A DNA stretch of 64,000 nt, taken from NCBI GenBank assembly GCA_017466365.1, contig JAFTUG010000012.1, positions 159,545 through 223,544 on the forward strand, given 5' to 3'. The translations under genes and the position numbers were made by a program. This DNA comes from Clostridia bacterium. Lineage in GTDB: Bacteria; Bacillota; Clostridia; Oscillospirales; Acutalibacteraceae. Every line of letters begins with the position of its first letter. Position 1 is the first letter of the stretch. Positions 35,689 through 53,630 of the stretch are shown here, in pieces. The notes under the pieces were generated by a model. The model was not told the DNA's origin. It saw nothing but the letters and a program-made list of their open reading frames with translations, and ran no database searches.

Positions 35689-35734
35689 AAGGCTTGCATG
35701 GATTTATAATTTCCGTGCAAGCCTTATTTTGTTT
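35689..35734. terminator. Bidirectional terminator between GDPD gene and ACS-like gene
   Basis: AAGGCTTGCATGGA pairs with TTCCGTGCAAGCCTT (ending 35725) with one wobble. The plus strand continues ATTTTGTTT and the minus strand TTATTTTTTTACC, so both convergent operons end here. Confidence 0.88.
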
Positions 35735-36413
35735 AGTTTGTTCTTTTGAAGTGCAGCTCCTTCATGCCTTCAACCTCGTCACAAATTGCTTTGAGATTGC
35801 AGGTATCGCAGTCAAAGTTTATGCTGTTCATAATGTGGTTGAGTGTTTCTGCAATTTCGGAATTCCTGCATGCAGCTTTTTCTGCCGCTTCATAATTTGC
35901 CAGAGGATGCGTTATAAACAAAATCCTGACTCCTTTTACTGCCGGATTCTCTTTGTATTTATTAATCAGCAGAGAGCCTACCGAACGAAAATCAATTCCG
36001 TTTTTTACCGCTGTTTTTGAAACACGAACAGCCTCTTTGTGAGAACGGGAGGTGCTCCGCATCATAAAACCGTCGGGAAAGCAATGGTATTTCACATATT
36101 CGATTTTTTTAATCAGGTTATATGACTTTTGTTCATCGCCGATGTCCTCAATCTGCACTATTGAAATGCGTGCAAATGAACGGTTATCTTTGATATCACC
36201 GAGGTCATCCCCGATAACCGTAATACCGTCGCTGATTTCTCTTGAAGTCACAAGGTTAAAGCCTGTTCCTTCAAGCTCGCAGGCAGTATCACGGCGCATA
36301 ATAACCTGATTTGTGCCTGCATCCTTCCAAGGCTCACCTTTATCAAAGCTTTTTTGTTCAAGCGATGAAAACAGGTCGGAAACGGTATCAATTAACGAAT
36401 CAAAAAATTTCAT
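35733..36413 (-). CDS. Stand-alone protein resembling the middle domain of acetyl-CoA synthase (CO dehydrogenase beta-subunit family)
   Basis: This 226-residue protein resembles, by eye, the middle (CoA-binding) domain of acetyl-CoA synthase AcsB/CdhC. LVTSREISDGITVIGDDLGD corresponds to the part of AcsB around its VVGPDLDEL motif. SKTAVKNGIDFRSVGSLL corresponds to the segment SKDAVAKGFRFKNYGEIL. It ends in C202-x2-C205-x5-C211, the place where the A-cluster [4Fe-4S] cysteines of AcsB begin; the nickel-binding CGC region is absent. It is the last gene of the operon and overlaps the preceding small gene by one base (TAATG). A CoA-binding or electron-transfer subunit is inferred. Confidence 0.65.
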   Translation of the reverse strand: MKFFDSLIDTVSDLFSSLEQKSFDKGEPWKDAGTNQVIMRRDTACELEGTGFNLVTSREISDGITVIGDDLGDIKDNRSFARISIVQIEDIGDEQKSYNLIKKIEYVKYHCFPDGFMMRSTSRSHKEAVRVSKTAVKNGIDFRSVGSLLINKYKENPAVKGVRILFITHPLANYEAAEKAACRNSEIAETLNHIMNSINFDCDTCNLKAICDEVEGMKELHFKRTN

Positions 36414-36568
36414 TACAGTTTTTTATCCCTTTTCATGGTGTCATAATGCTTGCCGAGAAGGTCATAAACCTTGCGGATAAGCTTCATATCAAGATTGAAA
36501 AAATAAATTGTGAACGTTATCAGAAACAGTGCAAGAATAACGCCGAGAATTATTAAAATAATTTCCAT
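36413..36568 (-). CDS. Small single-helix membrane protein, 51 residues
   Basis: This short protein starts MEIILIILGVILALFLITF, one membrane helix with almost no N-terminal tail. A basic cytoplasmic tail follows (KLIRKVYDLLGKHYDTMKR). The start at 36568 is decided by AAAGGAG, which overlaps the stop codon of the activase gene. Its stop overlaps the next start by one base, so all three are translationally coupled. I do not recognise a family. A membrane tether for the neighbouring enzyme is a guess. Confidence 0.7.
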   Translation of the reverse strand: MEIILIILGVILALFLITFTIYFFNLDMKLIRKVYDLLGKHYDTMKRDKKL

Positions 36569-36572
36569 ATTA

Positions 36573-37370
36573 TTACTCCTTTGCAAGACCCTTCTGGCGA
36601 GCATATTCTGCAGCACCGAGCGCACCCATAAGCTGCGGGTCGGTTGAAAGCTCAACTACCTTGATTTTGAGAACTTTTTCTATTGCTTTCTTAAGACCGT
36701 CGTTCTTTGCGCAGCCGCCTGTAAGTGTTATGCTGTCGGTTGCGCCTGCTTTTTTAGCCATAACAAAGCATCTTTTTGCAACGGCAAGCTGGATGCCTGC
36801 AGCAATTTCATCCATGGGCTTGCCTTCGCCTACAAGCGAAATAACCTCACTTTCCGCAAAAACGGTGCACTGTGCGGTGATGGGAATTGTGTTTTTTGCC
36901 TCAAGTGAAAGCTTTGAAAATTCGGGCAAGGTCATTTCAAATGCATTTGCCATTGCTTCATAGAATCTGCCTGTTCCTGCGGCGCATTTATCGTTCATTG
37001 CAAAATTCTTAACCGTGCCGTCTGTATCGATTGAAATACCTTTAACGTCCTGACCGCCGATATCAATAATTGCCTTTACTTCGGGGTTTGTTACATGAAC
37101 GCCCATTGCGTGGCAGCTTATTTCCGAAATGTTTTCATCGGCAAAGGGTACTTTGTTTCTGCCGTAGCCCGTGCCGATAAGATATGTAAGCTCCTGTGCG
37201 GAGTTGAGTCCGTCTACCTGTGAAATTGCATCGCTCAACGCAATTTCAGCACTTGCAACGGGATTTATTTTGCTTCTGTTTGTAACGTTGGCAACCATTT
37301 TGCCGTTTTCATCAAGAATAACGCATTTTGTATAGGTTGAGCCTACGTCACATCCGCCGAAATATTTCAT
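36573..37370 (-). CDS. Acyl-CoA dehydratase activase (HgdC/BadF family)
   Basis: This 265-residue ASKHA-fold ATPase belongs to the family that activates 2-hydroxyacyl-CoA dehydratases. It passes one electron to the dehydratase at very low potential, driven by ATP. Motifs: CDVGSTYTKCVILD (phosphate 1), AIIDIGGQD (connect/phosphate 2) and TLTGGCAKNDGL (adenosine). The two cysteines that hold the [4Fe-4S] cluster between the two monomers are C129 (NDKCAAGTGRF) and C168 (TAQCTVFAESEV). It lies 25 bases after the alpha-like subunit, so it is in the same operon as its presumed partner. Confidence 0.93.
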   Translation of the reverse strand: MKYFGGCDVGSTYTKCVILDENGKMVANVTNRSKINPVASAEIALSDAISQVDGLNSAQELTYLIGTGYGRNKVPFADENISEISCHAMGVHVTNPEVKAIIDIGGQDVKGISIDTDGTVKNFAMNDKCAAGTGRFYEAMANAFEMTLPEFSKLSLEAKNTIPITAQCTVFAESEVISLVGEGKPMDEIAAGIQLAVAKRCFVMAKKAGATDSITLTGGCAKNDGLKKAIEKVLKIKVVELSTDPQLMGALGAAEYARQKGLAKE

Positions 37371-37395
37371 AATAATTATCTCCTTTACTCACACA

Positions 37396-38925
37396 TTACC
37401 ATGCAAGGTCATCTTCAAAGTCTACAAGCGAGGGGTCGAGAGGCTCCTCTTGAAGAACTGTTTGCATATATTTATTGACCTGCTCACGCATATCGCGTCT
37501 TGAAATTGTTCTGGGATCCATAAGGTCCTGCTTAACCCAGATGAAATTGACGTTACGTTCTCTTGCCTGGTCGTCAAATATACCCGAAAGACCGTCCATG
37601 CCCTTGCAGGAAATCTGGTCATACATGATAACCGTATCGGCATCGTATTCTTCAACGATCCTCCAAAGCTCATCAACAACGTTTCTGTAGCCGCCCTTTG
37701 TATGCTTACGCATGATTGAACGCTGATATGTTTTGGCAACATCTTTGAGAGCCTGCTCTTTATCTTCTGTGTTATATTTGATATAGGAAATCATGGTTTC
37801 CATATCCATAACAACATTTATACCCCAGCAGTTTTCAAGCCAGTTTGCAAAGCTTGTATAATAGTTTGCGGGGCATGACCACACAACCGCACGGTGACGC
37901 ATTTCCTTTGAAACGGGAGCTTTGTTTTCGTATGCCTTAAGCATAAGCTTATTAACCTTTTTATCAACCTTAAGGAAACGCTTGTCTACACCGCCGGAAA
38001 GATTGAAATAATATATTCTGTAAAGCCAGAATGCAGCACCCGTCATCTGAGGATAGGGAGTTTTGTTGATATCCCATTTTTCAAGCTCATATCCGAGCTG
38101 TTCGTTGCTTGTTTTGAGAGCTGCAAAAAATGCATCCCAATCAAACTTTTCGCCCGTCTGTTCTTCAATGAACTTTATAAGCTCCTTAACTTCTTCAACC
38201 GCATATTCCTGAACATCCTCATCGTTATAACGCAGAGGTATATTAAAAAGATGAACGGGAAGGTTGAGGCGACGGTCAAGGAAGGTTGAATTCATAACCG
38301 AGCCATCGCAAGGCATGTTGGTTGCAATCATACAGCAACCCATTTTGGGGTAATCGTCGTCAATTGCAACACCTGCTTCCGCACTCGGAAGAGGGCAAAC
38401 ATCGGCAGGCACGCCGAAGCTTTCCGTAACTTCAAGATACGGCGGAGTTATCTGCTGGTCAACCATTGAGGTAAGGAAAATGGGTATTGTCTGTAAGGGA
38501 ATAACCGTAAGATTCGGAAATCCCGAGAATATTTCATTTGGTATAATCTCATCGGTGAGAACAATTTTCTTTGAAAACTTATTGTTGGGATTTATCTTTT
38601 CATCGGCAACAAAGGATTTATGTATGAGACCCGTTGCGTGCTTGACAATCATATTGAAATGAAGATGTACAATGCGCAGATGAGTTCCTCTTAATCCTGC
38701 GGTATGTCTGTCAACAAACGAAGGTGTTGAAAGATATGATGCCATCCAGCGGTATTTCCAAAGACCTTTAACGGTTGAAACAGGCGCTTTAAGCACCATG
38801 ACTATCATGTCTTTCCAAGTGACAAGCCAGCGGTAATAGTCATACATCGTATCCTTGAAGCCTCGCCATTCTCTGTGCTTGAGTATGGCGGTGTGTTTTT
38901 TATAAAGCTTGCCGTAATCAGCCAT
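37396..38925 (-). CDS. 2-hydroxyacyl-CoA dehydratase family protein, alpha-like subunit
   Basis: This 509-residue protein is a divergent member of the HgdA/BcrC-type family. Cysteines in conserved-looking places are MGCCMIATNMPCDGS, VWSCPANYY and MYDQISCKGMDGL. The C-terminal segment ISRRDMREQVNKYMQ corresponds to the family's final helix. It has an N-terminal extension of about 90 basic, aromatic residues not usual in HgdA. The start at 38925 overlaps the beta-like gene by 8 bases (ATGGCTGA). Known relatives dehydrate 2-hydroxyacyl-CoAs, reduce benzoyl-CoA or, as double-cubane proteins, reduce small molecules. The substrate here is unknown. Confidence 0.85.
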   Translation of the reverse strand: MADYGKLYKKHTAILKHREWRGFKDTMYDYYRWLVTWKDMIVMVLKAPVSTVKGLWKYRWMASYLSTPSFVDRHTAGLRGTHLRIVHLHFNMIVKHATGLIHKSFVADEKINPNNKFSKKIVLTDEIIPNEIFSGFPNLTVIPLQTIPIFLTSMVDQQITPPYLEVTESFGVPADVCPLPSAEAGVAIDDDYPKMGCCMIATNMPCDGSVMNSTFLDRRLNLPVHLFNIPLRYNDEDVQEYAVEEVKELIKFIEEQTGEKFDWDAFFAALKTSNEQLGYELEKWDINKTPYPQMTGAAFWLYRIYYFNLSGGVDKRFLKVDKKVNKLMLKAYENKAPVSKEMRHRAVVWSCPANYYTSFANWLENCWGINVVMDMETMISYIKYNTEDKEQALKDVAKTYQRSIMRKHTKGGYRNVVDELWRIVEEYDADTVIMYDQISCKGMDGLSGIFDDQARERNVNFIWVKQDLMDPRTISRRDMREQVNKYMQTVLQEEPLDPSLVDFEDDLAW

Positions 38926-40123
38926 TGTTCTTCGCCTGCCTTTCCTTCTGAATCTTCTTGATTTCAAGGCTTTCAACAAAAGCCTGAACACGGGTGCGCA
39001 GCTGACCTGATGCCGAAGCGGTATACTGTCTGTCAACCGCAGCAGTGGGTACGCCGTAATCCTCGCTCATAACATAAGAAGCAAGAGCTCTTTCATAGCC
39101 CCAGTATTCGCAGAATTTGAGCTGCTCATACATAACTCCGTCTGCATGGTATTCATCAACAAGCTTCTTTACATAATCTCTGCGTTCCTGAACCTTTTCG
39201 TGGCTCATATATCTCGGGCATTGACTTGTTTTAAGATAATGCGTACAAATCTGTGTAAGAATATCCTCATCGGGATTAATCTTTATTTCTTCTCTGCCGG
39301 GCATTGCACCGAAGCAGAATCTGTCCGCAACTACAAGTGCGCCGCTGTCCTCAATAAGAGCGGTAAAATCGGGGTCGTCCATTTCCGAGCCGACTACAAC
39401 AATTTTTGCTCTGAATTTCTTTTTTGTATCGGGTTCACGGGTTTTAAGCTCTTCTGCCGTTTCGCGAAGCTTCGGAAGAATAAGAGCCTTCGGGCAGCAA
39501 TATGTAATGAGATTGAGAATATGATATTCATATCCTGTTATGCGAGGATTATCTTCTTTGCGGTAATTGCCGATTTCCGTCATAAGACGGCACACCTCGT
39601 TATGCTCCTCAACAGCCTTAAGCAGTGCTTCGTCGGAAGTGTCGATGCCGTAAACCTCGGAAAGCTTATCAAGAATTTTGAGCCTTGTCTGGTTAACGTA
39701 ATGCTTTACGGTATGATCGGCAATTTTAAAAGGCATATCAAGGAAGGTTAAGAAAAATTTATCGTTTTCAACAAGATTGAGAAGTTCAAAATGCTCTGCC
39801 GTTCTGTTCATTTCAGAACAGGTTTCAGAAGCAAGAAGAGCATTGAGGAAATTATATCCGCCCTCAATTGCACGCTCAAGAATTGCCTTTGAAAAACCGC
39901 AGAGGAAGTTGCTCATATAATAAGTGGCAATATCCATTGAGCCTGTTCTCGGTGCGCGAAGCTTTACGGAAAAACAGTTTCCGCAGTTTAAAAGAACCTC
40001 GGGAATATGGTAGCAGGTATAGCCGAGAGCAATACCGCCGTTTGCCTTTGCCTGCTGAACAAGAGCGTTGTTTGCTTCCTGCAGCAGGTTCTCAAATTCA
40101 TAAAGATGTTTTAAATCTCTCAC
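38918..40123 (-). CDS. 2-hydroxyacyl-CoA dehydratase family protein, beta-like subunit
   Basis: This 401-residue protein belongs to the HgdB/FldC family. The three cysteines expected to bind the [4Fe-4S] cluster are C37 (LGYTCYHIPEVLL), C102 (SETCSEMNR) and C338 (QLKFCEYWGYE). Additional cysteines at C47 and C50 (NCGNC) and C75 are unusual and could hold a second metal site. The C-terminus (GQLRTRVQAFVESLE) is family-typical. Its start overlaps the CooC-like gene by 4 bases, and its end overlaps the alpha-like gene by 8. It is part of the operon 41455 to 35733. Confidence 0.88.
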   Translation of the reverse strand: MRDLKHLYEFENLLQEANNALVQQAKANGGIALGYTCYHIPEVLLNCGNCFSVKLRAPRTGSMDIATYYMSNFLCGFSKAILERAIEGGYNFLNALLASETCSEMNRTAEHFELLNLVENDKFFLTFLDMPFKIADHTVKHYVNQTRLKILDKLSEVYGIDTSDEALLKAVEEHNEVCRLMTEIGNYRKEDNPRITGYEYHILNLITYCCPKALILPKLRETAEELKTREPDTKKKFRAKIVVVGSEMDDPDFTALIEDSGALVVADRFCFGAMPGREEIKINPDEDILTQICTHYLKTSQCPRYMSHEKVQERRDYVKKLVDEYHADGVMYEQLKFCEYWGYERALASYVMSEDYGVPTAAVDRQYTASASGQLRTRVQAFVESLEIKKIQKERQAKNNG

Positions 40124-40887
40124 TTTAATATCTCCATTTCAACAAGTGCTTTTCTTGCACCTTTAACAACATTTGAATCATCGGGAAGTTTGGTTATGTT
40201 CTTGCCCTCAATATCATAAATAGCAAGGTTTGAGTCTGTCGGGATATATGACAAAACGGGAATTCCGTTTGTGTTGATATGCTCAATAATGCTTTCATCG
40301 GGAATTCTGTTAACGATTGCACCGATTTTTTTATACATAACAAGCTCGTCGGCAACGCTCTTGATGGTCGAAATAACCTGCGTGCCCTTTTTGCTTGCAT
40401 CGGTTATAAGAAGAAGATGCGAAACCTTTTCCATGACACGGCGGTTTATCTGCTCAATGCCTGCTTCGCCGTCAATCACAACATAATCAAAATCGCTTGA
40501 AAGAATACTGATAACCTCTTTAAGGTATGTATTGATTTTGCAGTAGCAGCCTGCACTTTCGGGTCTGCCTACTGCAATGAATGCAAAGCCGTCGGTTTCA
40601 ACAAGGGCATCAAAAATTTTGTATCTTGCATCGCCGAGAAGCTCTATAGCAGCTTTTGTCTGACCGTCCTCAACGGTTTCAACGATTTCCTTGCGGATAT
40701 CGTCTATTGTCATTTTAACGTCAATTCCGAGTGCGGTTGAAAGACCTACTGCCGGGTCGGCATCAATTGCAAGGATTTTTTTATCGGGGAAATTCTGTAC
40801 CAGAAGTTTTACTATTGCGGCGGAAATTGAGGTTTTTCCTACTCCGCCCTTACCTGACAGTGCTATTATTGTTGCATTTTTGTCCAT
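40120..40887 (-). CDS. CooC-like P-loop ATPase (MinD/SIMIBI family)
   Basis: This 255-residue ATPase has the deviant Walker A SGKGGVGKTSI (residues 11-21) and LAIDADPAVGLSTALG. It also has the CooC hallmark CxC in SAGCYCKINTY (C114, C116). CooC uses ATP to insert nickel into carbon monoxide dehydrogenase, and the CxC pair binds metal in the CooC dimer. Here no CODH gene is present; the gene overlaps the 2-hydroxyacyl-CoA dehydratase beta-like gene by 4 bases. That suggests a role in maturing the metal centre of this enzyme or of the ACS-like protein. CGGAGAGAATG precedes the ATG. Confidence 0.85.
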   Translation of the reverse strand: MDKNATIIALSGKGGVGKTSISAAIVKLLVQNFPDKKILAIDADPAVGLSTALGIDVKMTIDDIRKEIVETVEDGQTKAAIELLGDARYKIFDALVETDGFAFIAVGRPESAGCYCKINTYLKEVISILSSDFDYVVIDGEAGIEQINRRVMEKVSHLLLITDASKKGTQVISTIKSVADELVMYKKIGAIVNRIPDESIIEHINTNGIPVLSYIPTDSNLAIYDIEGKNITKLPDDSNVVKGARKALVEMEILK

Positions 40888-40918
40888 AACATTCTCTCCG
40901 TTTTAGTTTGAAAGTTCT

Positions 40919-41455
40919 CTAAATATTTGTGTTGTGTTTTGTGTTTTTAAGAAGCATTACAAGTACGGGAACAACGATTACCTGAATGATTATTCCCGGT
41001 ATTGCGTTTGTTATTGCTCCTGCAAAAAAGGCTTCAAAGCCGAATTTTGAAGCATCAAAGCCCATGCATGCAAGCTGAACGAGTCCCCATAACAAACGAC
41101 CCGATACCATTGCAATAAGCAGCGAACAATATATGTATCCCTTCTTTTTTGGGAAAACACGGTAAAGCAATCCCGAAACAAAGCCGTATACGGCAAGCTC
41201 AAACGCCATTGAAACAGCATTGGGGAAAAGAATAGGCATTCCGAGTGTTGCCGAGCGCAGAAGAGGTGCAATAAACCCGACAAGAAGTCCCCAAGGTGCG
41301 CCGCATATGAATCCGCAAAGAATAACCGGTATGTGCATCGGGCAGAGCATTGCGCCGATTTGCTGAATCTGACCTGTGATAAACGGCAAAACGTATGCGA
41401 GCGCCAGAAACATTGCGGACAATGCAGGATTTATTATTTTTCTTTGCTTTTGCAT
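40919..41455 (-). CDS. ECF transporter S component
   Basis: This 178-residue membrane protein has five to six hydrophobic segments and motifs of ECF-type vitamin/cofactor uptake S components (LAYVLPFITGQIQQIG, CPMHIPVILCGFICGAPWG, SMAFELAVYGFVSGLLYR). S components bind the substrate and share a common EcfA/EcfT energy module, which is not in this window. GGAGG lies 6 bases upstream of the ATG. The gene is 31 bases upstream of the CooC-like gene and is probably the first gene of that operon. Substrate unknown; position suggests a cofactor or substrate of the operon's enzyme. Confidence 0.85.
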   Translation of the reverse strand: MQKQRKIINPALSAMFLALAYVLPFITGQIQQIGAMLCPMHIPVILCGFICGAPWGLLVGFIAPLLRSATLGMPILFPNAVSMAFELAVYGFVSGLLYRVFPKKKGYIYCSLLIAMVSGRLLWGLVQLACMGFDASKFGFEAFFAGAITNAIPGIIIQVIVVPVLVMLLKNTKHNTNI

Positions 41456-43679: not shown

Positions 43680-46600
43680 ATGAAAAGAATTGTTGTTAAG
43701 GCAATATCAGTTTTGCTTGCGGCGGCAATTATAATCTGCTCTGCACCGCTTACGGGATTTTTGAACCTTGAACTGCCTGAAATAGGCAAACTGTTTTATG
43801 ATAAAGCGGAGGCTTCGGAAACTTATACAAGCGGATATTTTACCTACTCCGTTGATGAAAACGGCAATGCAACCGTTACCCGTTGCGATACTTCAGTCAG
43901 CGGAGATATCGTCATTCCGCCAACCATAGACGGTTATCCCGTAACAGCAATAGGCACGAGTGCATTTTTAAACTGCAGTTCTATTGTTTCAGTAACTCTC
44001 CCTTACGGATTAGCGTCATTGGGAAACGCTGCATTCAGAAACTGCAGTGCTCTTGAATATATAAATATCCCCGAAAGTGTAACAACTCTCGGGTCTGCAG
44101 CATTTCAAATGTGTACAAGTCTCAAATCAATAACTCTTCCGGACAGCGTTGTTTCTGTCGGAGTAACTCTTTTTATGGGATGTTCGGCACTTACGGATGT
44201 AATCCTCAGCAAGAGTCTTACGGCATTAACGGCGAACATGTTCAGAAACTGTACGTCTCTTACAACCGTTATTATTCCTGACGGCATAACAACTTTAGGT
44301 GGAGCGATTTTTTATGGCTGTTCATCTCTTAACGAAATAGTTATTCCTGCTTCAATAACAAGTATTCCTTCGGGTGTGTTCAGCGGCTGCACAGCACTTA
44401 CCGATGTCTGTTACAGAGGTACCGAGGAGGAATGGAGCGGAATCTCAATATCCGAAACAAACAACGAATACTTCATCAATTCAATTATTCATTATAATAT
44501 TTTTACGGTAACATGGAATATCGGCGACGAAAAAATTGTTGACTGCTATCAGAGCGGAGACGAAATCGTTGTGCCTTCTTCACCGATAAAAACAGGATAT
44601 AGATTTGCCGGATGGGATTCCGAAATTCCTGCAAACATGCCCGATGAGGATTTGATGTTTACGGCACAATGGAAAACAGAACAATTCACCGTAACATGGA
44701 ATATTGAAGGTATCGAAACCGTGGTTGAATATTACTACGGTGACGAAATTGTTATTCCCGATGTTCCCGAAAAAGAGTTTTATGCATTTGTCGGCTGGGA
44801 TGCCGAAATTCCCTCAACAATGCCTGATAAAGACCTTGTTTTTACTGCATTATATGAATTGACTGGCGGTTCATGCGGCGAAAGCGTAACCTTTGATTTC
44901 GATAAAGAAACAGGTATGCTCATAATAAGCGGAGAAGGGGAGATAACCTCTTTGCCGTGGGCAGATGAAAAAGAAAACATAACAGCCGTTTCAATTGAGG
45001 AGGGTATTACGGCAATACCCGAGTCTGCATTTGACGGCTGCTCAAATCTTGCGAGTGCAGCATTTCCCGCAAGTCTTGTTTCAATCGGGAATTCCGCATT
45101 TACAAACTGTGAATCGCTCAACGATATCTATTATTCCGATGACGATACCGCATGGAGTGCCGTAGCAATCGGTACGGGTAATGACAGCCTTGAAGCGGCG
45201 GATATGCACTATACATATGCTCCCGAGGATTACTTTACATACGAAATCACAAACGGCACGGCAACGGTTACGGGCTATAATTCGGCGATTATAAAAGACG
45301 GCATTATCGAAATACCGTCTGTGCTTGAAAACTGTCCCGTTACCGCAATAGGCGAAAAGGCGTTCTATGAAAAAACGGAAATAGTTTCCGTAAAAATTCC
45401 CGCATGCGTTAAAACTATCGGTGTTTCCGCTTTTGCAAAATGTACCTCACTCAATTCTGTTTCAATGGCTGACGGTGTTGAAACTATCGGCAAAACCGCA
45501 TTCAACGGATGTACCGCTTTAACCGAAATCACCTTGTCTGAAGGCGTAACTTCAATCGGTGCTTCGGCGTTTATGAATTGTTCCGCACTTACTGCAGTTA
45601 ATGTTTCTTCAACCGTAGCCGATTTGAGTGCAGGTATGTTTACGGGCTGCTCTGCTTTGTCTGCGATTAACGTCAGCGAAAACAGCTCTGTGTTTTCAAG
45701 CGATGAAAACGGCGTTGTTTTTAATAAAGATAAAACGGAGCTTGTTATTTATCCCGTCGGCAAAGCGGATGGAAGCTATACCGTTCCGAGCGGAGTAATA
45801 GCTATCGGAACATCGGCTTTTAAAAATGCAAAAAATCTTACAAGTGTTACTATGCCCGAGGGCGTAACCTCAATAGGCACAACGGCGTTTGCGATTTGCT
45901 CCTCACTTACAACGGTTTATCTCCCTTTGAGCTTGACCGAAATCAAAAACGGTGCATTCAACGGCTGTTCGGCATTGACGGATGTTTATTACGTCGGAAT
46001 GGCTTCGGAATATAATACAATTGAAATCGGTTCAGGCAACGATGCACTTGCTTCTGCAACACTTCACCATGCACCCGACCCGGAAGATATTTTTTATTAC
46101 GTTATATCTGACGGCTATGCTGTTATAGACGGATGCGATGAATCAAAGCTTGCTGACGGCAGACTTGTTATTCCTGAAACTCTTGAAGGTTATCCGGTAA
46201 AGGTAATCTGTGATTATGCGTTTTTTGATAAAATATCCATAACGGAAATTATTCTTCCCGATATACCGCTCGATATCGGTAACAGTGCATTTTACGGCAC
46301 GGGATATTATTACGATACTGAAAACTGGGAGAATGATGCACTTTATATCGGCAAACATCTCATCAAAACAAATTTGATTGCCAATAATGCTTTTACGGTT
46401 AAAGAGGATACTGTTTCCATTGCCGATTATGCAATAAATATGACTGAACTTTATACCGTTCATCTTCCTGAAAGCATAAAATATATCGGATATAACGGTA
46501 TAGGCTATAACGATTATCTTGACCACATTTTTTATGGCGGAACACGCAGTCAGTGGTCTGAAGTTGAAACTGAAATCAATTATTACAATGCAACCGTTTT

Positions 46601-49600
46601 TTACGGTTATGTGGACAGCGGATATGAAAACGGATATATCTACTATATTACAACCCGCGGCAATGCAATTATAACCGAATGCGAAAACAACGTTTCGGGT
46701 ATTCTTGAAATCCCCGCAACTCTCGGCGGATATCCCGTTGCTGAAATAGATAACAGCGTGTTTTACGGTTTCTCAAATATAACCGAGGTTGTTTTTCCGG
46801 AAACCTTGACAGTCATCGGCGAAGATGCTTTTAATTACTGCAGTAATCTTAAAACGGCGTATCTTCCGGAATCTCTGGAATATATCGGCGAAAGAGCTTT
46901 TTATGACTGTTATTACTTGACAACGGCAAATTTACCCGAGACCTTGAAGTTTATCGGAGATTATGCTTTCGCTTATTGCAGTAACCTTGAAAGTGTTGTT
47001 ATTCCCGACAGTGTGGAGACCGTAAGCTGCGGAGCATTCAGCGGCTGCAACGATTTGGTATCCCTTACAATCGGAAACAGTGTGAAGTCAATCGAAGATT
47101 ATGCTTTCGCTTATTGCAGAAACATCGAAAGCGTTAATATTCCCGCAAGCGTAGAATATATAGGCAATCATGCTTTCCGGAGCTGTGATGATTTGCAAGA
47201 TATCACAATCGGTAACGGTGTGAAAGCAATCAGAAGCTATGCATTCGCTTATTGCGACAGTCTCAAAAGTGTTGATATTCTCGACAGTGTGGAAATTATA
47301 GGCTACAGCGTATTTGTCGGATGCGGCATTTTGTCATCGGTTACAATTGGCAGCGGACTGAAAACGATAGGAGAAGATGTTTTTATGGACTGCGTTTCTC
47401 TCACATCGTTTGAGGTTTCGCAGGATAACCCATATTATTCGAGTGAAAACGGTATAATTTTCAGCAAGGATAAAACTGCTCTTGTTCTTTATCCGTGCGG
47501 AAAACCGGAAACAAGCTATGAGATTCCGTCTCAAGTTGAAAAAATCGAGGCGGGTGCATTCGATTATGCCAAAAATCTTCAGGAATTTACCGTTAACGAA
47601 GAAAATGCAAGCTTTTCAAGCCTCGACGGTGTTTTGTTAAGTGCTGATAAAACAGTTCTTGTTTGCTATCCTTATGCTAAATCGGACAAGTTTTATACAA
47701 TACCCGAAAGTATAACAACCGTTGCAACAGGTGCGTTCTGCCGTAATAAGTATCTTAATATAATCTCTATCGGAAAAACCGTAACATTGCTTGAAAACCT
47801 TGCCTTTGATGTTTCTTTGTTATCTCTGTTTTATGGAGGAACATCTGAAGAATGGAGCAATCTCGTCAGCTACGGCCAATCAATAAACTGCTCTAATATC
47901 TATTATGAGTCGACAAGTAAGATTGATGAAACGGGATTCATTTATACGGTTAATGAGGATTCTGAAGCCGCAATTGTAGGTTATGCCGACATGCCGGAAG
48001 GAAGATTTGTTATTCCGTCGGAGATTGAAGGCTGTACCGTTGTTGAGATAGGCGGCAACGCATTTTATGATTGTGCATTTATAACGGAGCTTGTCCTTCC
48101 CGAAAGCCTTGTAACAATAGGAGACGGAGCCTTCCGATCCTGTTATAATCTTGAAAAGGTTGAGCTTTTCGATTCGGTTGAATCAATCGGAAACTATGCG
48201 TTTCAATACTGCGATCTGCTTGAAAGTTTTGATATTCCCGAAAGCGTAACATCAATCGGTTCCTATGCTTTTTACGGTTGCTATATGCTTTCACAGGTTG
48301 TAATTCCCTCCGGTGTTAATTCAATAAAAAACGGTACATTTTCCTGTTCCGGCATAGAAAGCATTGATATTCCCGACAGTGTGGAAACCATAGGTTATGA
48401 AGCTTTTTATGGCTGCAACAGCTTATCATCTGTCACGATCGGCAGCGGAGTAACTTCTATAGGCAGCTATGCTTTTTATAACTGCTACAACCTTAAAACG
48501 ATTACATTCGGCAACGGAGTGACTTCTATAGGCAGCAGTGCTTTCAAATACTGCAGAAAGCTCGAAGAAATAGCAGTTCCTCCCAAGGTTGAAATTATAG
48601 ACGAATATACCTTCTATGGTTGCAATAACCTTAAAACCGTTACATTCGGCAGCGGTGTAAGCGCAATCGCTTCAAATGCTTTTGAAGGCTGCGGTTCCCT
48701 TGTCTCATTTGAGGTTTCGCAGGATAATCAGAGCTTTTCTTCGGATAACGGGATCCTTTTCAATAAAGATAAAACCACACTTATGTTATATCCCTGCGGA
48801 AAGCCCGAAACAAGCTATGAAATTCCTGAAAGTGTTCAGTCTGTTGCGTCAGACGCCTTTTTAGCTACCGCAAATTTAAAGGAATTTACGGTTAATGCCG
48901 ATAATGAATATTTCACAAGTATTGACGGTGTGCTTTTCAGCAAGGATAAGACCACTCTTGTGTGTTATCCCTACGGCTGTGAGAATAGCTTTTATTTCAT
49001 TCCCGAAAATACAACCACCGTTGCTGCAGGTGCGTTCTATGAAACGGAGCATAAAATCACAATTCTTTCAATTCCGAAATCCGTAACGTTATTTGAAACC
49101 GGTTCTTTTGTCGGCTATTATTATTTTGAAACTGTTTTTTATGGCGGTTCACAGGATGAATGGAATTCAATAGGTTATAATCCGTTAAATTATTCAACCG
49201 TTCATTATAATTCTCAAGCTTATATAGATGACGGCGGATTGCTTTATTATGTCGATGCAAACTCCAATGCTGTTATAATTGGCTGTAAAGAAAATGTTAC
49301 GGGCGATTTGCTTATTCCCGAGGCTCTCGGAGGATATCCCGTAACAGTAATCGGAAACGGTGCTTTTTCAAATTGCGAAAGTCTTACGAGCGTTGTTATA
49401 CCCGACAGTGTGGTAACAATCGGAAACAGTGCATTTGCCGATTGCTACCACATGACGAGCCTTACAATCGGAAACGGCGTAACCACAATAGGGGAAAATG
49501 CCTTCGATAGTTGTTATAATATTGAAAGTGTTGCTATACCCGACAGCGTGGTTACAATCGGAAACAGTGCGTTTAATAATTGCTCTGCAATAACGGATTT

Positions 49601-52600
49601 GACAATCGGAAACGGCGTAACATCAATAGGAGAATATGCATTCCGTTATTGCGGAAAGCTTAATAGCGCTGTTATTCCCGAAGGAGTTGAATTAATCGGC
49701 TACGGAGCGTTTTATTGCTGCCATAAACTGAATAATGCTGTTATACCCGACAGCGTAACCGCCCTCGGAGAAGCAGCGTTTTACAATTGCGAAGAGCTTG
49801 AAACGGTAAAAATCGGCAGCGGCGTTAAAGAAATACCTGATAACTCCTTTGCAAACTGTTATGAATTGAAGTCATACGAAGTTTCGGAGAATAACACTGC
49901 ATACTCAAATGACGAAAACGGAGTTCTTTTCAATAAGGATAAGACCCGACTCATTTCATATCCCATGGGCAAAACCGAGGAAAGCTATGAAATTCCCGCC
50001 TGTGTTATTTCGGTTGCTCCCTATGCTTTGCAGGGTAACGATAATCTTAAGGCAATAACTGTTAATGAGAATAACGGATATTTTGCAAGTGTTGACGGTG
50101 TTCTTTTTTCAAAGGATTTAACAACTCTGGTTTGTTTATCTGTAGGTTCGGTAAATAAGCTGTATATAATTCCCGATACCGTAACAACAGTTGCCACGGG
50201 TGCCGTTCTCACCGATAACGATTTTTATTATATTTCAATCCCGAAAACCGTTACAACGCTCAACGAAAGGGCAATCGTAACGAGCAGCAGCTTCAGGTCA
50301 ATTTATTTCGGCGGCACTCAAGAAGAATGGAATGCTCTCTATCAGCAAAACAATAATTATATCAGCTATTATGATATATATTTCAACTCTTTCGCTTCCG
50401 AAGACCCTTGCGGATTGACTTATTTTATCAATAATGATGAGTCAGCGGCGGTTGTTATTGATGCCGATAAAACTGTTAAGGGAGATTTTGTTATTCCCGA
50501 AACTCTCGGCGGCTGTCCGGTTGCGGCAATTGATGATAATGTATTCTTCTGCAACGAAAACCTTACAAGCATCACCATTCCCGATAGCGTAGTTTATATC
50601 GGAGAAGAAGCTTTTTATCTTTGCTCGCAGCTTGAAAATATTGTTTTTCCCGAAAGTCTGAAAGAAATAGAATCAGCGGCATTTGGCGGTTGTGTGAAGC
50701 TTGAATCCATTCATATTCCCGCAAGCGTAACTTCAATAGGATACGCTGCATTTATGGATTGCACGGGTATTACGAAAATTACCGTTGATGATGATAATGA
50801 GTGCTATATCGCCGATGAAAACGGTGTGCTTTATAATGCGGATAAAACCGAGATTATTCAGTATCCTCTTAATTCCGCCGCAGCCGAATTTGTTATTCCC
50901 GATACTGTAACAACTTTTGATTTCGAGGCTTTTATGAATGCACAAAACCTTAAAACTCTTACCATTCCCGCAAGTGTAGATAATTTGGACGGCGAGTTTT
51001 GCTGGATAGGAAAGAATTTTGAAAAGTTCATCGTGGATGAAAATAATCTTATGCTTTCCGGCGATGAGCAGGGCGTGCTTTATGATAAGGAAAAAACTTA
51101 TCTTCTTTCCTGCCCGCCTGCAATCCGTGATAAAAATTTGGTGATTCCGGATACGGTTGTTGAAGTTTATGACCTTGCATTTATGTTCTGCAGTGAGCTT
51201 ACAATCACTATTCCCGACAGCTTGAACCTCTCGGTTGCTCTTGATGTTTTTGCATTCGGTTCGGCAAAAGAATATATCGTCAGCGAAACCCATCCCGATT
51301 TGGCAGCCTATAAAGGAGCACTTTATACAAAGGATAAGACTGTTCTTATCAAGTATCCTTCAGACAGCGGTAATGATATCCATGTTGCACCCGAAACCCT
51401 TGAATCGGTTTGTGGCTTTGCGTTCATGTCATCTGATTTTATGCTTGTTCAGGTTTTGCCGTCAATGCTTTTGCTTAATGAATATAATGCAAGTGATTTG
51501 ATGAGGATGTGCGGTGATCTGACTTTGCATGCTCCGAAGCCTGTTTTTGCTTACGGTATAAAGCAGATTTGTGTTGCACAAGCCGATGAAACCGAGCTGT
51601 GTGATGCAAACAGGGATATTGCAGACTTTTATAATGAAATCAGGGATTATCGTGATTATTATGATCAAATGCTTAAAGAAGAAAATATAGATTATTTTGA
51701 GAAGATTGAGTGTTTGTTATTTATCCCTGTTTACAATGAAGTTCTTTCAGGTGCCGACCAAATTACAGTCTGCGGAGGAGACCATTCCGATGTCCATACC
51801 CATGTTTGGGTTGAAACTACGGTAAACGAAACCTGCACGGCTGACGGAAGCATAACAAATGCTTGCTCAATCTGCGATGAAGAAACAGTGACTGTTATTC
51901 CCGCCTCACATAAGCCGGGTGAATGGGTAACGGCAATAGAGCCTACAACCGAGCATGACGGAAAAAAGGCAAAATACTGTACCGTGTGTGAGGAGTTGCT
52001 TGAAGAAGAAATACTTCCGCAGCTTGATATTCCCGTAACGGGCATTGACCTTAAGGAAACCGAAGCTGAAATTCAGCATTATTCTTCACTTCAGCTTAAT
52101 GCAGCAACTGTTCCCGCTGTTGCAAATAACACAAAAATTCTCTGGTCATCAAGCGATGAAAGCATCGCAACCGTTGATGAAAACGGCGTTGTTACCGCAG
52201 TTTCCGTCGGTGATGCAATAATTACCGCAACAACCGAGGAGGGCGGCTTTGCGGCCGAGTGTGCCGTTACGGTTACTCCTGCCGACTTTACCGTAACTCT
52301 CAATATCGACGGCGTTCAGAGTGTTCTTACCGTAACCGAGGGCACAAAAATGAATATCGATGACCCCTTAAAGGAAGGATATTCCTTCATCGGATGGTCA
52401 CCTGAAATGCCTGACATAATGCCTCCTGAAAACCTCGAATTTACGGCGGTTTTCGAGATTAACAGCTATACGGTTGAATGGAATATCGACGGTCTTACCA
52501 TGCACGAAACGTATCAGTTCGGTGCAAAGATTGATAAGTCAAAAACATTTACAAAGAAGGGTTATACCTTCGCAGGCTGGACTCCCGAAATTCCCGACAC

Positions 52601-53630
52601 TATGCCCGCTCAAAACATGGTGTTCAATGCGGTCTGGACGGCAAATCTTTATGATGCAATGTTCAGCGCAAACGGCGGCATATTCCCTGACGGCGATTCC
52701 ATCAAAAAGCTTCCCACCGCATATAATTCTGAAATTGCAGTTCCCGAAAGCCCCGAAAGAGCAGGCTACGAATTCGCAGGTTGGGCATATAACGGCAAAA
52801 ATATCGGAACCGATGCGGGAATTATGGACAGCATTGAAGGAAAAACCTTTGAAGCAATCTGGGCTTCAAACAACACCGCCAAATACAGAATTGAAACCTA
52901 CACCATGAACACAATCGGCGAATACGAAAAAACATCGATAACTCTCAATGCCGATGTTTATGATAATGTTTCTCTTAATCCCGAGGTTGAAACAGGCTTT
53001 ATTCTCAATGAAGAAAAGAGCGTTCTCGACGGAACGGTGCTTGCTGATGAAATTCTTGTTCTCAAGGTTTATTATGACAGAGCCTCTTATTCATTTACCG
53101 TAAATATTGACGGTGAAACAGAGACTGTTGAATATTATTACGGCGCAATTATTTCGCCTCTTGAAAACCCCGTAAAGGACGGATATGAATTTGTAGGCTG
53201 GAACACGGAAATTCCTTTAACAATGCCTGCAAATGATGTTACGGTAACTGCGGTGTTCAAGGTTAAGGCGGCAGATAAAAAAGCCGCAAAAATATCGATT
53301 GTTACTCCCGAAAAGCGTACTCTTTATTACGGCGAATCAATAACCCTTCAGGCAAGCACTTCAAATCTTCCTGAGGGAGCGGTTATTAAGTGGTATGTTG
53401 ACGGAGACGGCGTATCGATAAAGCCCTCCGCAAGCGGAAAAACCTGCAAGGTAACATCTACCTCAAACGGAAATGTTATAGTAAGGGCGGTTGTTCTTGA
53501 TACAAAAGGAAACACGGTGAAGGGGGCAGACGGTAAGCCTGTTTCGGATTATGAATATTTGTATTCCGAGGTTAACCTTTGGCAGATGATAGTGGCCTTC
53601 TTCCGCAACCTTTTCGGCACAAAAATTTAA
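43680..53630 (+). CDS. Giant BspA-type leucine-rich repeat surface protein (3316 residues)
   Basis: The protein has a signal peptide (RIVVKAISVLLAAAIIICSA) and then about 2700 residues of BspA/LRR_5 repeats in seven modules. Modules start near residues 53, 515, 800, 982, 1417, 1850 and 2242. Each opens with a strand such as YFTYEITNGTATVTGY and IPxxLxGYPVxxIG, and usually closes with FYGGTxxEWxxI. Two InlB-type (Flg_new) repeats interrupt at residues 276-395 (GYRFAGWDSEIPANMP). The C-terminal part has a Cys-pair motif (TNACSICDEETV, KYCTVCEE), a Big_2 domain (SSDESIATVDENGVVTAVS), several InlB-type repeats and the tail LWQMIVAFFRNLFGTKI. CGGAGG precedes the ATG. It probably binds host or plant surfaces. 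Confidence 0.92.
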   Translation: MKRIVVKAISVLLAAAIIICSAPLTGFLNLELPEIGKLFYDKAEASETYTSGYFTYSVDENGNATVTRCDTSVSGDIVIPPTIDGYPVTAIGTSAFLNCSSIVSVTLPYGLASLGNAAFRNCSALEYINIPESVTTLGSAAFQMCTSLKSITLPDSVVSVGVTLFMGCSALTDVILSKSLTALTANMFRNCTSLTTVIIPDGITTLGGAIFYGCSSLNEIVIPASITSIPSGVFSGCTALTDVCYRGTEEEWSGISISETNNEYFINSIIHYNIFTVTWNIGDEKIVDCYQSGDEIVVPSSPIKTGYRFAGWDSEIPANMPDEDLMFTAQWKTEQFTVTWNIEGIETVVEYYYGDEIVIPDVPEKEFYAFVGWDAEIPSTMPDKDLVFTALYELTGGSCGESVTFDFDKETGMLIISGEGEITSLPWADEKENITAVSIEEGITAIPESAFDGCSNLASAAFPASLVSIGNSAFTNCESLNDIYYSDDDTAWSAVAIGTGNDSLEAADMHYTYAPEDYFTYEITNGTATVTGYNSAIIKDGIIEIPSVLENCPVTAIGEKAFYEKTEIVSVKIPACVKTIGVSAFAKCTSLNSVSMADGVETIGKTAFNGCTALTEITLSEGVTSIGASAFMNCSALTAVNVSSTVADLSAGMFTGCSALSAINVSENSSVFSSDENGVVFNKDKTELVIYPVGKADGSYTVPSGVIAIGTSAFKNAKNLTSVTMPEGVTSIGTTAFAICSSLTTVYLPLSLTEIKNGAFNGCSALTDVYYVGMASEYNTIEIGSGNDALASATLHHAPDPEDIFYYVISDGYAVIDGCDESKLADGRLVIPETLEGYPVKVICDYAFFDKISITEIILPDIPLDIGNSAFYGTGYYYDTENWENDALYIGKHLIKTNLIANNAFTVKEDTVSIADYAINMTELYTVHLPESIKYIGYNGIGYNDYLDHIFYGGTRSQWSEVETEINYYNATVFYGYVDSGYENGYIYYITTRGNAIITECENNVSGILEIPATLGGYPVAEIDNSVFYGFSNITEVVFPETLTVIGEDAFNYCSNLKTAYLPESLEYIGERAFYDCYYLTTANLPETLKFIGDYAFAYCSNLESVVIPDSVETVSCGAFSGCNDLVSLTIGNSVKSIEDYAFAYCRNIESVNIPASVEYIGNHAFRSCDDLQDITIGNGVKAIRSYAFAYCDSLKSVDILDSVEIIGYSVFVGCGILSSVTIGSGLKTIGEDVFMDCVSLTSFEVSQDNPYYSSENGIIFSKDKTALVLYPCGKPETSYEIPSQVEKIEAGAFDYAKNLQEFTVNEENASFSSLDGVLLSADKTVLVCYPYAKSDKFYTIPESITTVATGAFCRNKYLNIISIGKTVTLLENLAFDVSLLSLFYGGTSEEWSNLVSYGQSINCSNIYYESTSKIDETGFIYTVNEDSEAAIVGYADMPEGRFVIPSEIEGCTVVEIGGNAFYDCAFITELVLPESLVTIGDGAFRSCYNLEKVELFDSVESIGNYAFQYCDLLESFDIPESVTSIGSYAFYGCYMLSQVVIPSGVNSIKNGTFSCSGIESIDIPDSVETIGYEAFYGCNSLSSVTIGSGVTSIGSYAFYNCYNLKTITFGNGVTSIGSSAFKYCRKLEEIAVPPKVEIIDEYTFYGCNNLKTVTFGSGVSAIASNAFEGCGSLVSFEVSQDNQSFSSDNGILFNKDKTTLMLYPCGKPETSYEIPESVQSVASDAFLATANLKEFTVNADNEYFTSIDGVLFSKDKTTLVCYPYGCENSFYFIPENTTTVAAGAFYETEHKITILSIPKSVTLFETGSFVGYYYFETVFYGGSQDEWNSIGYNPLNYSTVHYNSQAYIDDGGLLYYVDANSNAVIIGCKENVTGDLLIPEALGGYPVTVIGNGAFSNCESLTSVVIPDSVVTIGNSAFADCYHMTSLTIGNGVTTIGENAFDSCYNIESVAIPDSVVTIGNSAFNNCSAITDLTIGNGVTSIGEYAFRYCGKLNSAVIPEGVELIGYGAFYCCHKLNNAVIPDSVTALGEAAFYNCEELETVKIGSGVKEIPDNSFANCYELKSYEVSENNTAYSNDENGVLFNKDKTRLISYPMGKTEESYEIPACVISVAPYALQGNDNLKAITVNENNGYFASVDGVLFSKDLTTLVCLSVGSVNKLYIIPDTVTTVATGAVLTDNDFYYISIPKTVTTLNERAIVTSSSFRSIYFGGTQEEWNALYQQNNNYISYYDIYFNSFASEDPCGLTYFINNDESAAVVIDADKTVKGDFVIPETLGGCPVAAIDDNVFFCNENLTSITIPDSVVYIGEEAFYLCSQLENIVFPESLKEIESAAFGGCVKLESIHIPASVTSIGYAAFMDCTGITKITVDDDNECYIADENGVLYNADKTEIIQYPLNSAAAEFVIPDTVTTFDFEAFMNAQNLKTLTIPASVDNLDGEFCWIGKNFEKFIVDENNLMLSGDEQGVLYDKEKTYLLSCPPAIRDKNLVIPDTVVEVYDLAFMFCSELTITIPDSLNLSVALDVFAFGSAKEYIVSETHPDLAAYKGALYTKDKTVLIKYPSDSGNDIHVAPETLESVCGFAFMSSDFMLVQVLPSMLLLNEYNASDLMRMCGDLTLHAPKPVFAYGIKQICVAQADETELCDANRDIADFYNEIRDYRDYYDQMLKEENIDYFEKIECLLFIPVYNEVLSGADQITVCGGDHSDVHTHVWVETTVNETCTADGSITNACSICDEETVTVIPASHKPGEWVTAIEPTTEHDGKKAKYCTVCEELLEEEILPQLDIPVTGIDLKETEAEIQHYSSLQLNAATVPAVANNTKILWSSSDESIATVDENGVVTAVSVGDAIITATTEEGGFAAECAVTVTPADFTVTLNIDGVQSVLTVTEGTKMNIDDPLKEGYSFIGWSPEMPDIMPPENLEFTAVFEINSYTVEWNIDGLTMHETYQFGAKIDKSKTFTKKGYTFAGWTPEIPDTMPAQNMVFNAVWTANLYDAMFSANGGIFPDGDSIKKLPTAYNSEIAVPESPERAGYEFAGWAYNGKNIGTDAGIMDSIEGKTFEAIWASNNTAKYRIETYTMNTIGEYEKTSITLNADVYDNVSLNPEVETGFILNEEKSVLDGTVLADEILVLKVYYDRASYSFTVNIDGETETVEYYYGAIISPLENPVKDGYEFVGWNTEIPLTMPANDVTVTAVFKVKAADKKAAKISIVTPEKRTLYYGESITLQASTSNLPEGAVIKWYVDGDGVSIKPSASGKTCKVTSTSNGNVIVRAVVLDTKGNTVKGADGKPVSDYEYLYSEVNLWQMIVAFFRNLFGTKI

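Follow-up and report, generated by a model that had tools for sequence, protein, structure and literature searches.

Why should a fragment of acetyl-CoA synthase (ACS) and an ATPase of the CooC family be encoded side by side with the subunits of a putative ATP-driven reductase? To our knowledge, carbon fixation is the only setting in which one would expect pieces of ACS. The question is raised by an operon of seven open reading frames (ORFs) in a 64,000-nucleotide stretch, here called the window, of contig JAFTUG010000012.1 from a Clostridia bacterium (Acutalibacteraceae; assembly GCA_017466365.1). The operon is real and conserved, and the conserved set consists of six genes, running from the CooC-family ATPase to the AcsB-like protein that we call mini-ACS. 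We see about an even chance that the CooC-family ATPase and mini-ACS form an accessory pair, derived from AcsF and ACS, that acts in trans on reductases resembling BzdNO, and if so the pair probably serves as a metal or cluster activator. The features on which the argument draws are as follows.

35733-41455, minus strand: the operon, seven ORFs (ORF list)
40919..41455, minus strand: energy-coupling factor (ECF) transporter S component, 178 aa (PF12822, ECF_trnsprt, 66.1 bits)
40120..40887, minus strand: CooC-family ATPase, 255 aa (phmmer against CooC 3kje, E 3.6e-16)
40540..40548, minus strand: CYC metal-site motif of CooC, residues 114-116 (aligned with the CxC of 3kje)
38918..40123, minus strand: HgdB / BzdN-like subunit, 401 aa (PF06050, HGD-D, 304.3 bits)
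37396..38925, minus strand: HgdA / BzdO-like subunit, 509 aa from the ATG at 38925 (PF06050, 161.5 bits)
36573..37370, minus strand: BadF/BcrA/HgdC-family activase, 265 aa (TIGR00241, 214.2 bits; cut-off 125.4)
36413..36568, minus strand: 51-aa peptide, start ATG at 36568 (alignment of relatives)
35733..36413, minus strand: mini-ACS (AcsB-like), 226 aa (CdhC, PF03598, 32.9 bits; cut-off 24)
35781..35810, minus strand: CxxCx5C motif of mini-ACS (C202, C205, C211) (alignments)

All seven ORFs lie on the minus strand where a preliminary description of this DNA had placed them, and the families it named (ECF S component, CooC-like, HgdB-like and HgdA-like, activase, AcsB-middle-domain-like) are backed by Pfam, NCBIfam or phmmer matches. 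It had also reported overlaps of 1, 4 and 8 bases at four junctions; the sizes are right, but the overlapping junctions number three, namely peptide/mini-ACS (1 base), HgdB/CooC (4 bases) and HgdA/HgdB (8 bases, with the ATG at 38925). At the remaining junctions the genes are separated by 4 bases (activase/peptide), 25 bases (HgdA/activase) and 31 bases (ECF S/CooC). Scans for promoters (18 sites, against a mean of 12.4 and a standard deviation of 4.0 in shuffled sequence) and terminators (4 sites, against a shuffle mean of 7.1) were not used as evidence.

Do these genes keep each other's company in other genomes, as the preliminary description had proposed to check? A genome_contigs scan with the CdhC-domain protein as query gave 14 loci, and the order CooC-HgdB-HgdA-activase-peptide-mini-ACS is unbroken in 12 of them; of the remaining two, L014 ends at a contig edge, and L021, whose surroundings are unrelated, matches weakly and in part (E 7e-5). 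Of the 13 true loci, ten belong to metagenome-assembled genomes (MAGs) of Clostridia from ruminant gut sites, according to their titles, two to Oscillospiraceae MAGs with no stated host, and one (L020) to a named isolate, Clostridium algidicarnis DSM 15099. In the 300 genomes of the window's family, a mini-ACS profile matched 14, one of these (G924) by a fragment in a 91-aa frame, and an HgdA profile matched 18, with 13 strong matches (best E at most 4.4e-219) and 5 weak ones (at least 1.7e-14); the 13 genomes with strong HgdA are the same 13 that carry full-length mini-ACS. In a second family of the order (165 genomes), mini-ACS was matched in 14, 13 strongly (at most 2.5e-79) and G1026 weakly (5.8e-9), and HgdA in 44, 13 strongly (at most 3.4e-183), G1026 at an intermediate level (1.5e-24) and 30 weakly (at least 1.5e-14), and again the two strong sets are an identical 13 genomes. 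Strong matches co-occur in 26 of 26 genomes of the two families. Moreover, the same five genomes hold mini-ACS and HgdA in two samples of the order (295 and 290 genomes, overlapping the families), where a sixth mini-ACS match, in G111, is a 714-aa frame that proved to be a full ACS. Chance co-occurrence was dropped as an explanation, the naive probabilities of identical 13-genome sets being 5.1e-23 and 1.5e-19 when the kinship of the genomes is ignored; genomes of close kin do not count as independent cases, and function cannot be read from a profile match alone.

A second lineage comes from another order, in which the short form of ACS was found in 6 of 71 genomes. At three of its loci (L079, L137 and L138) the short form is accompanied, contig permitting, by HgdB, HgdA, two activases and CooC.

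Three neighbours were tried as further members of the core and rejected. The ECF S component had been counted in by the preliminary description. Outside the window, 27 first-lineage loci have 1 kb or more of sequence 5' of CooC; a relative of the ECF S gene lies directly there at only 1 of them (L016), and at none of the 6 second-lineage loci. An S-adenosylmethionine (SAM)-dependent methyltransferase lies near mini-ACS in only 8 of 44 listed loci, with best profile scores far below the cut-offs, and neighbours of the old yellow enzyme (OYE) type occur in only 5 of 44; both counts are limited by contig ends. The class I SAM methyltransferase genes stand directly downstream of mini-ACS on the same strand at L069, L015, L016, L018 and L019, upstream of CooC at L009 and L011, and beside the operon at L071. 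Outside the named families, the ORF labels in these locus listings were assigned by eye. Alignment rows were picked from the fetched loci by profile score and length, with duplicates removed and the window included; this choice favours family-like sequences, and where a contig end truncates an ORF the alignment shows a gap.

What kind of enzyme do the central genes encode? The best match of HgdB among solved structures is BzdN (E 3e-25). Six cysteines of HgdB (C37, C75, C102, C270, C302 and C338) are all kept in 57 of 57 rows, are also present in the shorter L079 protein, and align with C36, C73, C100, C263, C293 and C327 of BzdN, which are given as the ligands of its [8Fe-9S] double cubane in the consulted part of PMC11971306. 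HgdA has three invariant cysteines, C177, C206 and C440 counted from the ATG (178, 207 and 441 in the alignment numbering, where translation was begun one codon earlier), kept in 64, 64 and 61 of 64 rows, with gaps in the other 3; they align with the three-cysteine site of BzdO, MbdO and HadB and with the double-cubane cluster protein (DCCP). The conserved N-terminal part of HgdA has no Pfam match. In the activase, C129 and C168, the ligands for the [4Fe-4S] cluster of the dimer, are kept in 44 of 44 rows. Judged by these residues, the HgdAB pair would have the cluster make-up of a class I benzoyl-CoA reductase (BCR), not that of a dehydratase or of the homodimeric DCCP, and the view of the preliminary description that the operon encodes an unassigned ATP-driven low-potential enzyme finds support.

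HgdAB falls below all equivalog cut-offs (see below), so its substrate should not be guessed from a name. Regulators resembling GntR, LysR or TetR adjoin L122, L123 and L133, and their presence beside some of the dispersed reductase pairs suggests several different substrates. In the second lineage, an acyl-CoA dehydrogenase gene was confirmed beside L138 and similar ORFs were seen by eye at L137 and L079, which hints at CoA esters as substrates there. The 51-aa peptide has one hydrophobic stretch, by eye a probable transmembrane helix, and a conserved FNLDxKL...KHYD tail. Of the dispersed first-lineage loci, 17 have room downstream, and at all of these but one (L191), hence 16, a small peptide follows HgdA; none was detected in second-lineage loci or in the divergent G1026 loci L180 and L181.

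When profiles of 33 short sequences and 48 full ACS sequences were compared with hhalign, they aligned across the ACS middle domain with a probability of 98.2 (E 4.6e-14). In the local profile alignment mini-ACS reaches the first two A-cluster cysteines and stops in the A-cluster loop; the third cysteine of its CxxCx5C motif falls on the third A-cluster cysteine only in a forced global alignment. (We take the A-cluster cysteines to be C506, C509 and C518 of the Moorella enzyme.) These alignments make mini-ACS a homologue of the ACS middle domain plus the start of the A-cluster loop. The motif is present in 33 of 33 short forms and in 45 of 47 rows of a wider set, the two rows without it being divergent second copies of mini-ACS. 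Conservation is highest in the C-terminal segment, with a mean majority fraction of 0.74 against 0.39 to 0.62 elsewhere. At 226 aa, mini-ACS has no N-terminal CODH-binding domain (CODH, carbon monoxide dehydrogenase), no fourth A-cluster cysteine and no Cys-Gly-Cys nickel site, and it should therefore hold no dinickel A-cluster of the known kind. An arginine kept in 45 of the 47 rows aligns with an ACS tryptophan, presumably Trp418 of the CoA site. In an unrooted tree of the middle domain (69 rows, with full ACS thinned to 22 rows by taking every second), the short forms all fall on one side of a branch (100/100) and full ACS on the other, and a single origin of the short forms is likely on this topology. 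The relatives at L182 (7060-7710) and L183 (7098-7751), which lack the cysteine motif, are second, divergent ones and lie away from HgdAB.

The CooC-family ATPase has a KGGVGK Walker A motif and keeps its CxC in 45 of 45 rows; its best solved relative is CooC 3kje, with the CYC aligned. Wood-Ljungdahl clusters in seven genomes of the phylum and in G902 contain two CooC-type genes, one beside CODH and one between AcsV (or AcsC) and AcsD. We take the latter position to be that of AcsF, the gene near orf7/acsV between acsC and acsE, whose product is presumably the nickel insertase of ACS. A profile of mini-ACS-linked CooCs matches the AcsF-position members with E values of 1e-49 to 1e-54, as against 1e-19 to 1e-28 for the CODH-side members. 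In a tree of 47 rows the mini-ACS-linked CooCs form one side of a branch (100/99) and the CODH-side CooCs one side of another (100/100), and with a midpoint root, used for drawing only, the mini-ACS-linked proteins join the AcsF-position type and not the CODH-side type. Of the two types, the ATPase of the window thus appears nearer to the one at the AcsF position. Since mini-ACS is homologous to ACS and its ATPase is nearest the AcsF position, the pair probably came from the ACS side of a Wood-Ljungdahl cluster. The preliminary description overlooked this AcsF-side kinship, as well as the A-cluster-like cysteine motif and the double-cubane signature.

Could the pair simply be a remnant of, or a helper for, carbon fixation? 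G902 holds both a CODH/ACS cluster and the mini-ACS operon, so mini-ACS is no leftover there. A CODH or Wood-Ljungdahl function in the window's genome was dropped, as the genome, 79.6% complete, has no match to the CODH family (PF03063); the preliminary description had likewise seen no CODH. Its further proposal, that the CooC-type ATPase is tied to the reductase, is supported as well.

Copy numbers and gene arrangement bear on how such a pair would act. Genomes with both proteins have 1 to 7 full-length HgdA genes (7 in G1156, 5 in G1060, 4 in several, 1 in many) and one motif-bearing mini-ACS each, to which G1060 and G1136 add a divergent relative without the motif. HgdB counts in five genomes, including that of the window, are 1, 4, 5, 4 and 4 (one of the 5 is an end piece of 41 residues), and four of these five have one close CooC relative. 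Moreover, CooC and mini-ACS form a two-gene unit in G1156, G1136 and G1060, with no HgdAB within about 5 kb on either side; in G1089 the two genes are adjacent and 3.2 kb from a separate HgdAB, and in G1055 an activase lies between them. Because such pairs stand apart from the reductases, we read them as an accessory unit acting in trans.

How might this unit work? By analogy with characterized relatives, electrons would pass from a ferredoxin-type donor to the activase, and with ATP from there to the [8Fe-9S] cluster of HgdB, the [4Fe-4S] cluster of HgdA with one open iron, and the substrate. The small peptide is a probable membrane anchor for the enzyme. Mini-ACS may receive a metal, nickel by the ancestry of the pair, on a [4Fe-4S]-type site from the CooC-family ATPase; once loaded, it would activate the HgdAB reductases in trans or pass a metal or cluster to them. 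In a bolder version the two proteins together load nickel and so assemble a nickel-containing Fe-S centre in subunits of the HgdA type, which would make the gut reductases a new class of nickel enzymes with several substrate-specific members per genome; we consider this doubtful. The consulted portions of the open-access literature on the double-cubane/BCR family name no dedicated assembly or activation factor.

Several observations weigh against an accessory pair acting in trans as an activator. Co-occurrence is broken by G924, where the 91-aa mini-ACS fragment has no HgdA match beside it, by G1026, with divergent HgdA and CooC and the C-terminus of mini-ACS fused to a piece resembling a Y-family polymerase, and by the two motif-less relatives of mini-ACS. 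In the second lineage it was read from the loci only, not genome-wide. No strong CooC was found in G905, a fragmented assembly. Among five genomes of the family of G071, the mini-ACS of G1110 has no CooC within about 5 kb and no HgdAB nearby, and in G1066, G1117, G1027 and G1048 no CooC was seen near mini-ACS before the contig ended. The trees are unrooted and flagged for long branches, so that to call the ATPases 'sister to AcsF', or to speak of 'one origin', depends in part on scores. A fourth [4Fe-4S] ligand is not evident in mini-ACS (H221 occurs in only 38 of 47 rows). Finally, E. coli MC4100 with a bzdNO plasmid yielded BzdNO, as the consulted part of PMC11971306 describes, so the double cubane is not obviously in need of a dedicated maturase, and the accessory pair may have a different contribution to make, for instance a second metal, or may act on electron transfer.

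Two loci of G1026 deserve description in their own right. At L179, a 235-aa ORF (1270-1977) resembles a Y-family DNA polymerase by eye at its N-terminus and ends in about 30 residues that match the CxxCx5C tail of mini-ACS; it could be a real fusion, a remnant or a misassembly. L180 (5365-15797) is a divergent relative cluster in which CooC accompanies two activases, two HgdB-HgdA pairs and, by eye, a ferredoxin-like protein; the ORFs that come next resemble CoA-transferases, again by eye.

The alternative that survives best, unlikely as we think it, is that mini-ACS is a small Fe-S protein for electron transfer or docking that feeds the activases, with CooC needed only for its assembly. The near-invariant CxxCx5C motif would suit such a protein, and a single copy beside several reductases is also what one would expect of a common donor. 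However, there are only three cysteines and the fourth ligand is not conserved, the partnership with CooC points to metal handling, and L180 encodes the separate ferredoxin-like protein, of 91 aa and located between the activases and the second HgdAB.

We give a distinctly smaller probability to the view of the preliminary description, in which mini-ACS would be present as a stoichiometric subunit and bind a CoA ester or a partner. The homology to the ACS middle domain speaks for it, and that domain interacts with CoA according to the part of PMC12289521 consulted. In addition, the reductase operon of the window and of most related loci ends with the mini-ACS gene, a position that fits a subunit and counts against an action in trans, and an acyl-CoA dehydrogenase gene or, by eye, similar ORFs accompany three second-lineage loci (see above). 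On the other side, a single motif-bearing copy would have to serve up to 7 reductase pairs, and in four genomes mini-ACS travels with CooC and apart from HgdAB. Moreover, the presumed CoA-site tryptophan is replaced by the arginine mentioned above, and it is the C-terminal cysteine segment, not the middle part, that is most conserved. On balance the subunit view is not supported, and we keep it as a rival to the accessory pair.

That the operon encodes an ordinary 2-hydroxyacyl-CoA dehydratase with unrelated neighbours is highly improbable: the fold family (PF06050) is shared and the window has a single activase gene, but HgdB keeps the six-cysteine pattern, of which HadC lacks two in the alignment with BzdN and HgdB, the NCBIfam scores for HadB and HadC are 32 and 84.4 against cut-offs of 750 and 700, and the neighbours co-occur in all the strong-match genomes of both families.

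If the activator reading is true, a recurring ACS-derived accessory pair gives one ATP-driven reductase family a testable activation step, and a fragment of ACS has been domesticated for another enzyme. It would also point to gut Clostridia as carriers of a group of anaerobic reductases still without assignment, as many as seven pairs in one genome. Elsewhere in the window, a plus-strand ORF of 3316 aa (43680-53630) probably encodes a surface protein; by eye, it contains leucine-rich (BspA-like) repeats and InlB-like ones.

Among the open-access papers that literature searches listed, no title or abstract describes this gene set, nor do the consulted parts of PMC11971306, PMC10134865, PMC12289521, PMC13056359, PMC6006190, PMC11574389, PMC10418091, PMC12491067 and PMC4148979. 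How, then, does it compare with known systems? A link between nickel chaperones and an anaerobic reductase has a precedent in the isoprene reductase cluster IsrA-HypA-HypB, as presented in the consulted part of PMC10134865. Genes for IsrA-like flavoproteins and a HypA-like nickel chaperone lie beside HgdAB or mini-ACS at L074 (147-7064), L076 (995-4135) and L189 (5130-8401); the flavoprotein of L074 has confirmed Fer4_20 and Pyr_redox_2 domains, and at L074 and L076 an ORF starting MPERTR, TetR-like in appearance, stands beside the IsrA-like genes. The enzyme family is a different one, however, and such neighbours occur in few genomes only.

The (R)-2-hydroxyisocaproyl-CoA dehydratase HadBC with HadI resembles the window's enzyme in fold, activase and three-cysteine alpha subunit and differs in the beta subunit: that of a dehydratase has a reduced cysteine set for one [4Fe-4S]-type cluster, and in the alignment HadC lacks two of the six cysteines that HgdB has. 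DCCP (NF040772) shares the six-cysteine signature of HgdB and is activase-driven, but the consulted text of PMC11971306 describes it as a homodimer with a double cubane in each chain, whereas the second subunit in the window, if it pairs with HgdB as we suppose, has three invariant cysteines at the cluster site; the cut-off of 350 for NF040772 is reached neither by HgdB (142.9 bits) nor by the other subunit (57.8). With AcsB/CdhC and AcsF the window shares the middle domain, the start of the A-cluster loop and an ATPase nearest the AcsF position, and it differs in the ACS parts that mini-ACS lacks. The closest likeness in cluster ligands is to the class I BCR of the bzd type, BzdNOPQ, with a heterodimer that combines the six-cysteine double-cubane site with a three-cysteine [4Fe-4S] site and with ATP-dependent activation, although the scores stay well below the equivalog cut-offs (bzdN, 95.9 against 453.8; benz_CoA_red_B, 22.9 against 486.55). 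BzdNOPQ has two different activase subunits and the window one activase gene, while two or more are found at the second-lineage loci L079, L134, L136, L137 and L138. To the BzdNOPQ plan, the window adds a membrane peptide, mini-ACS and CooC.

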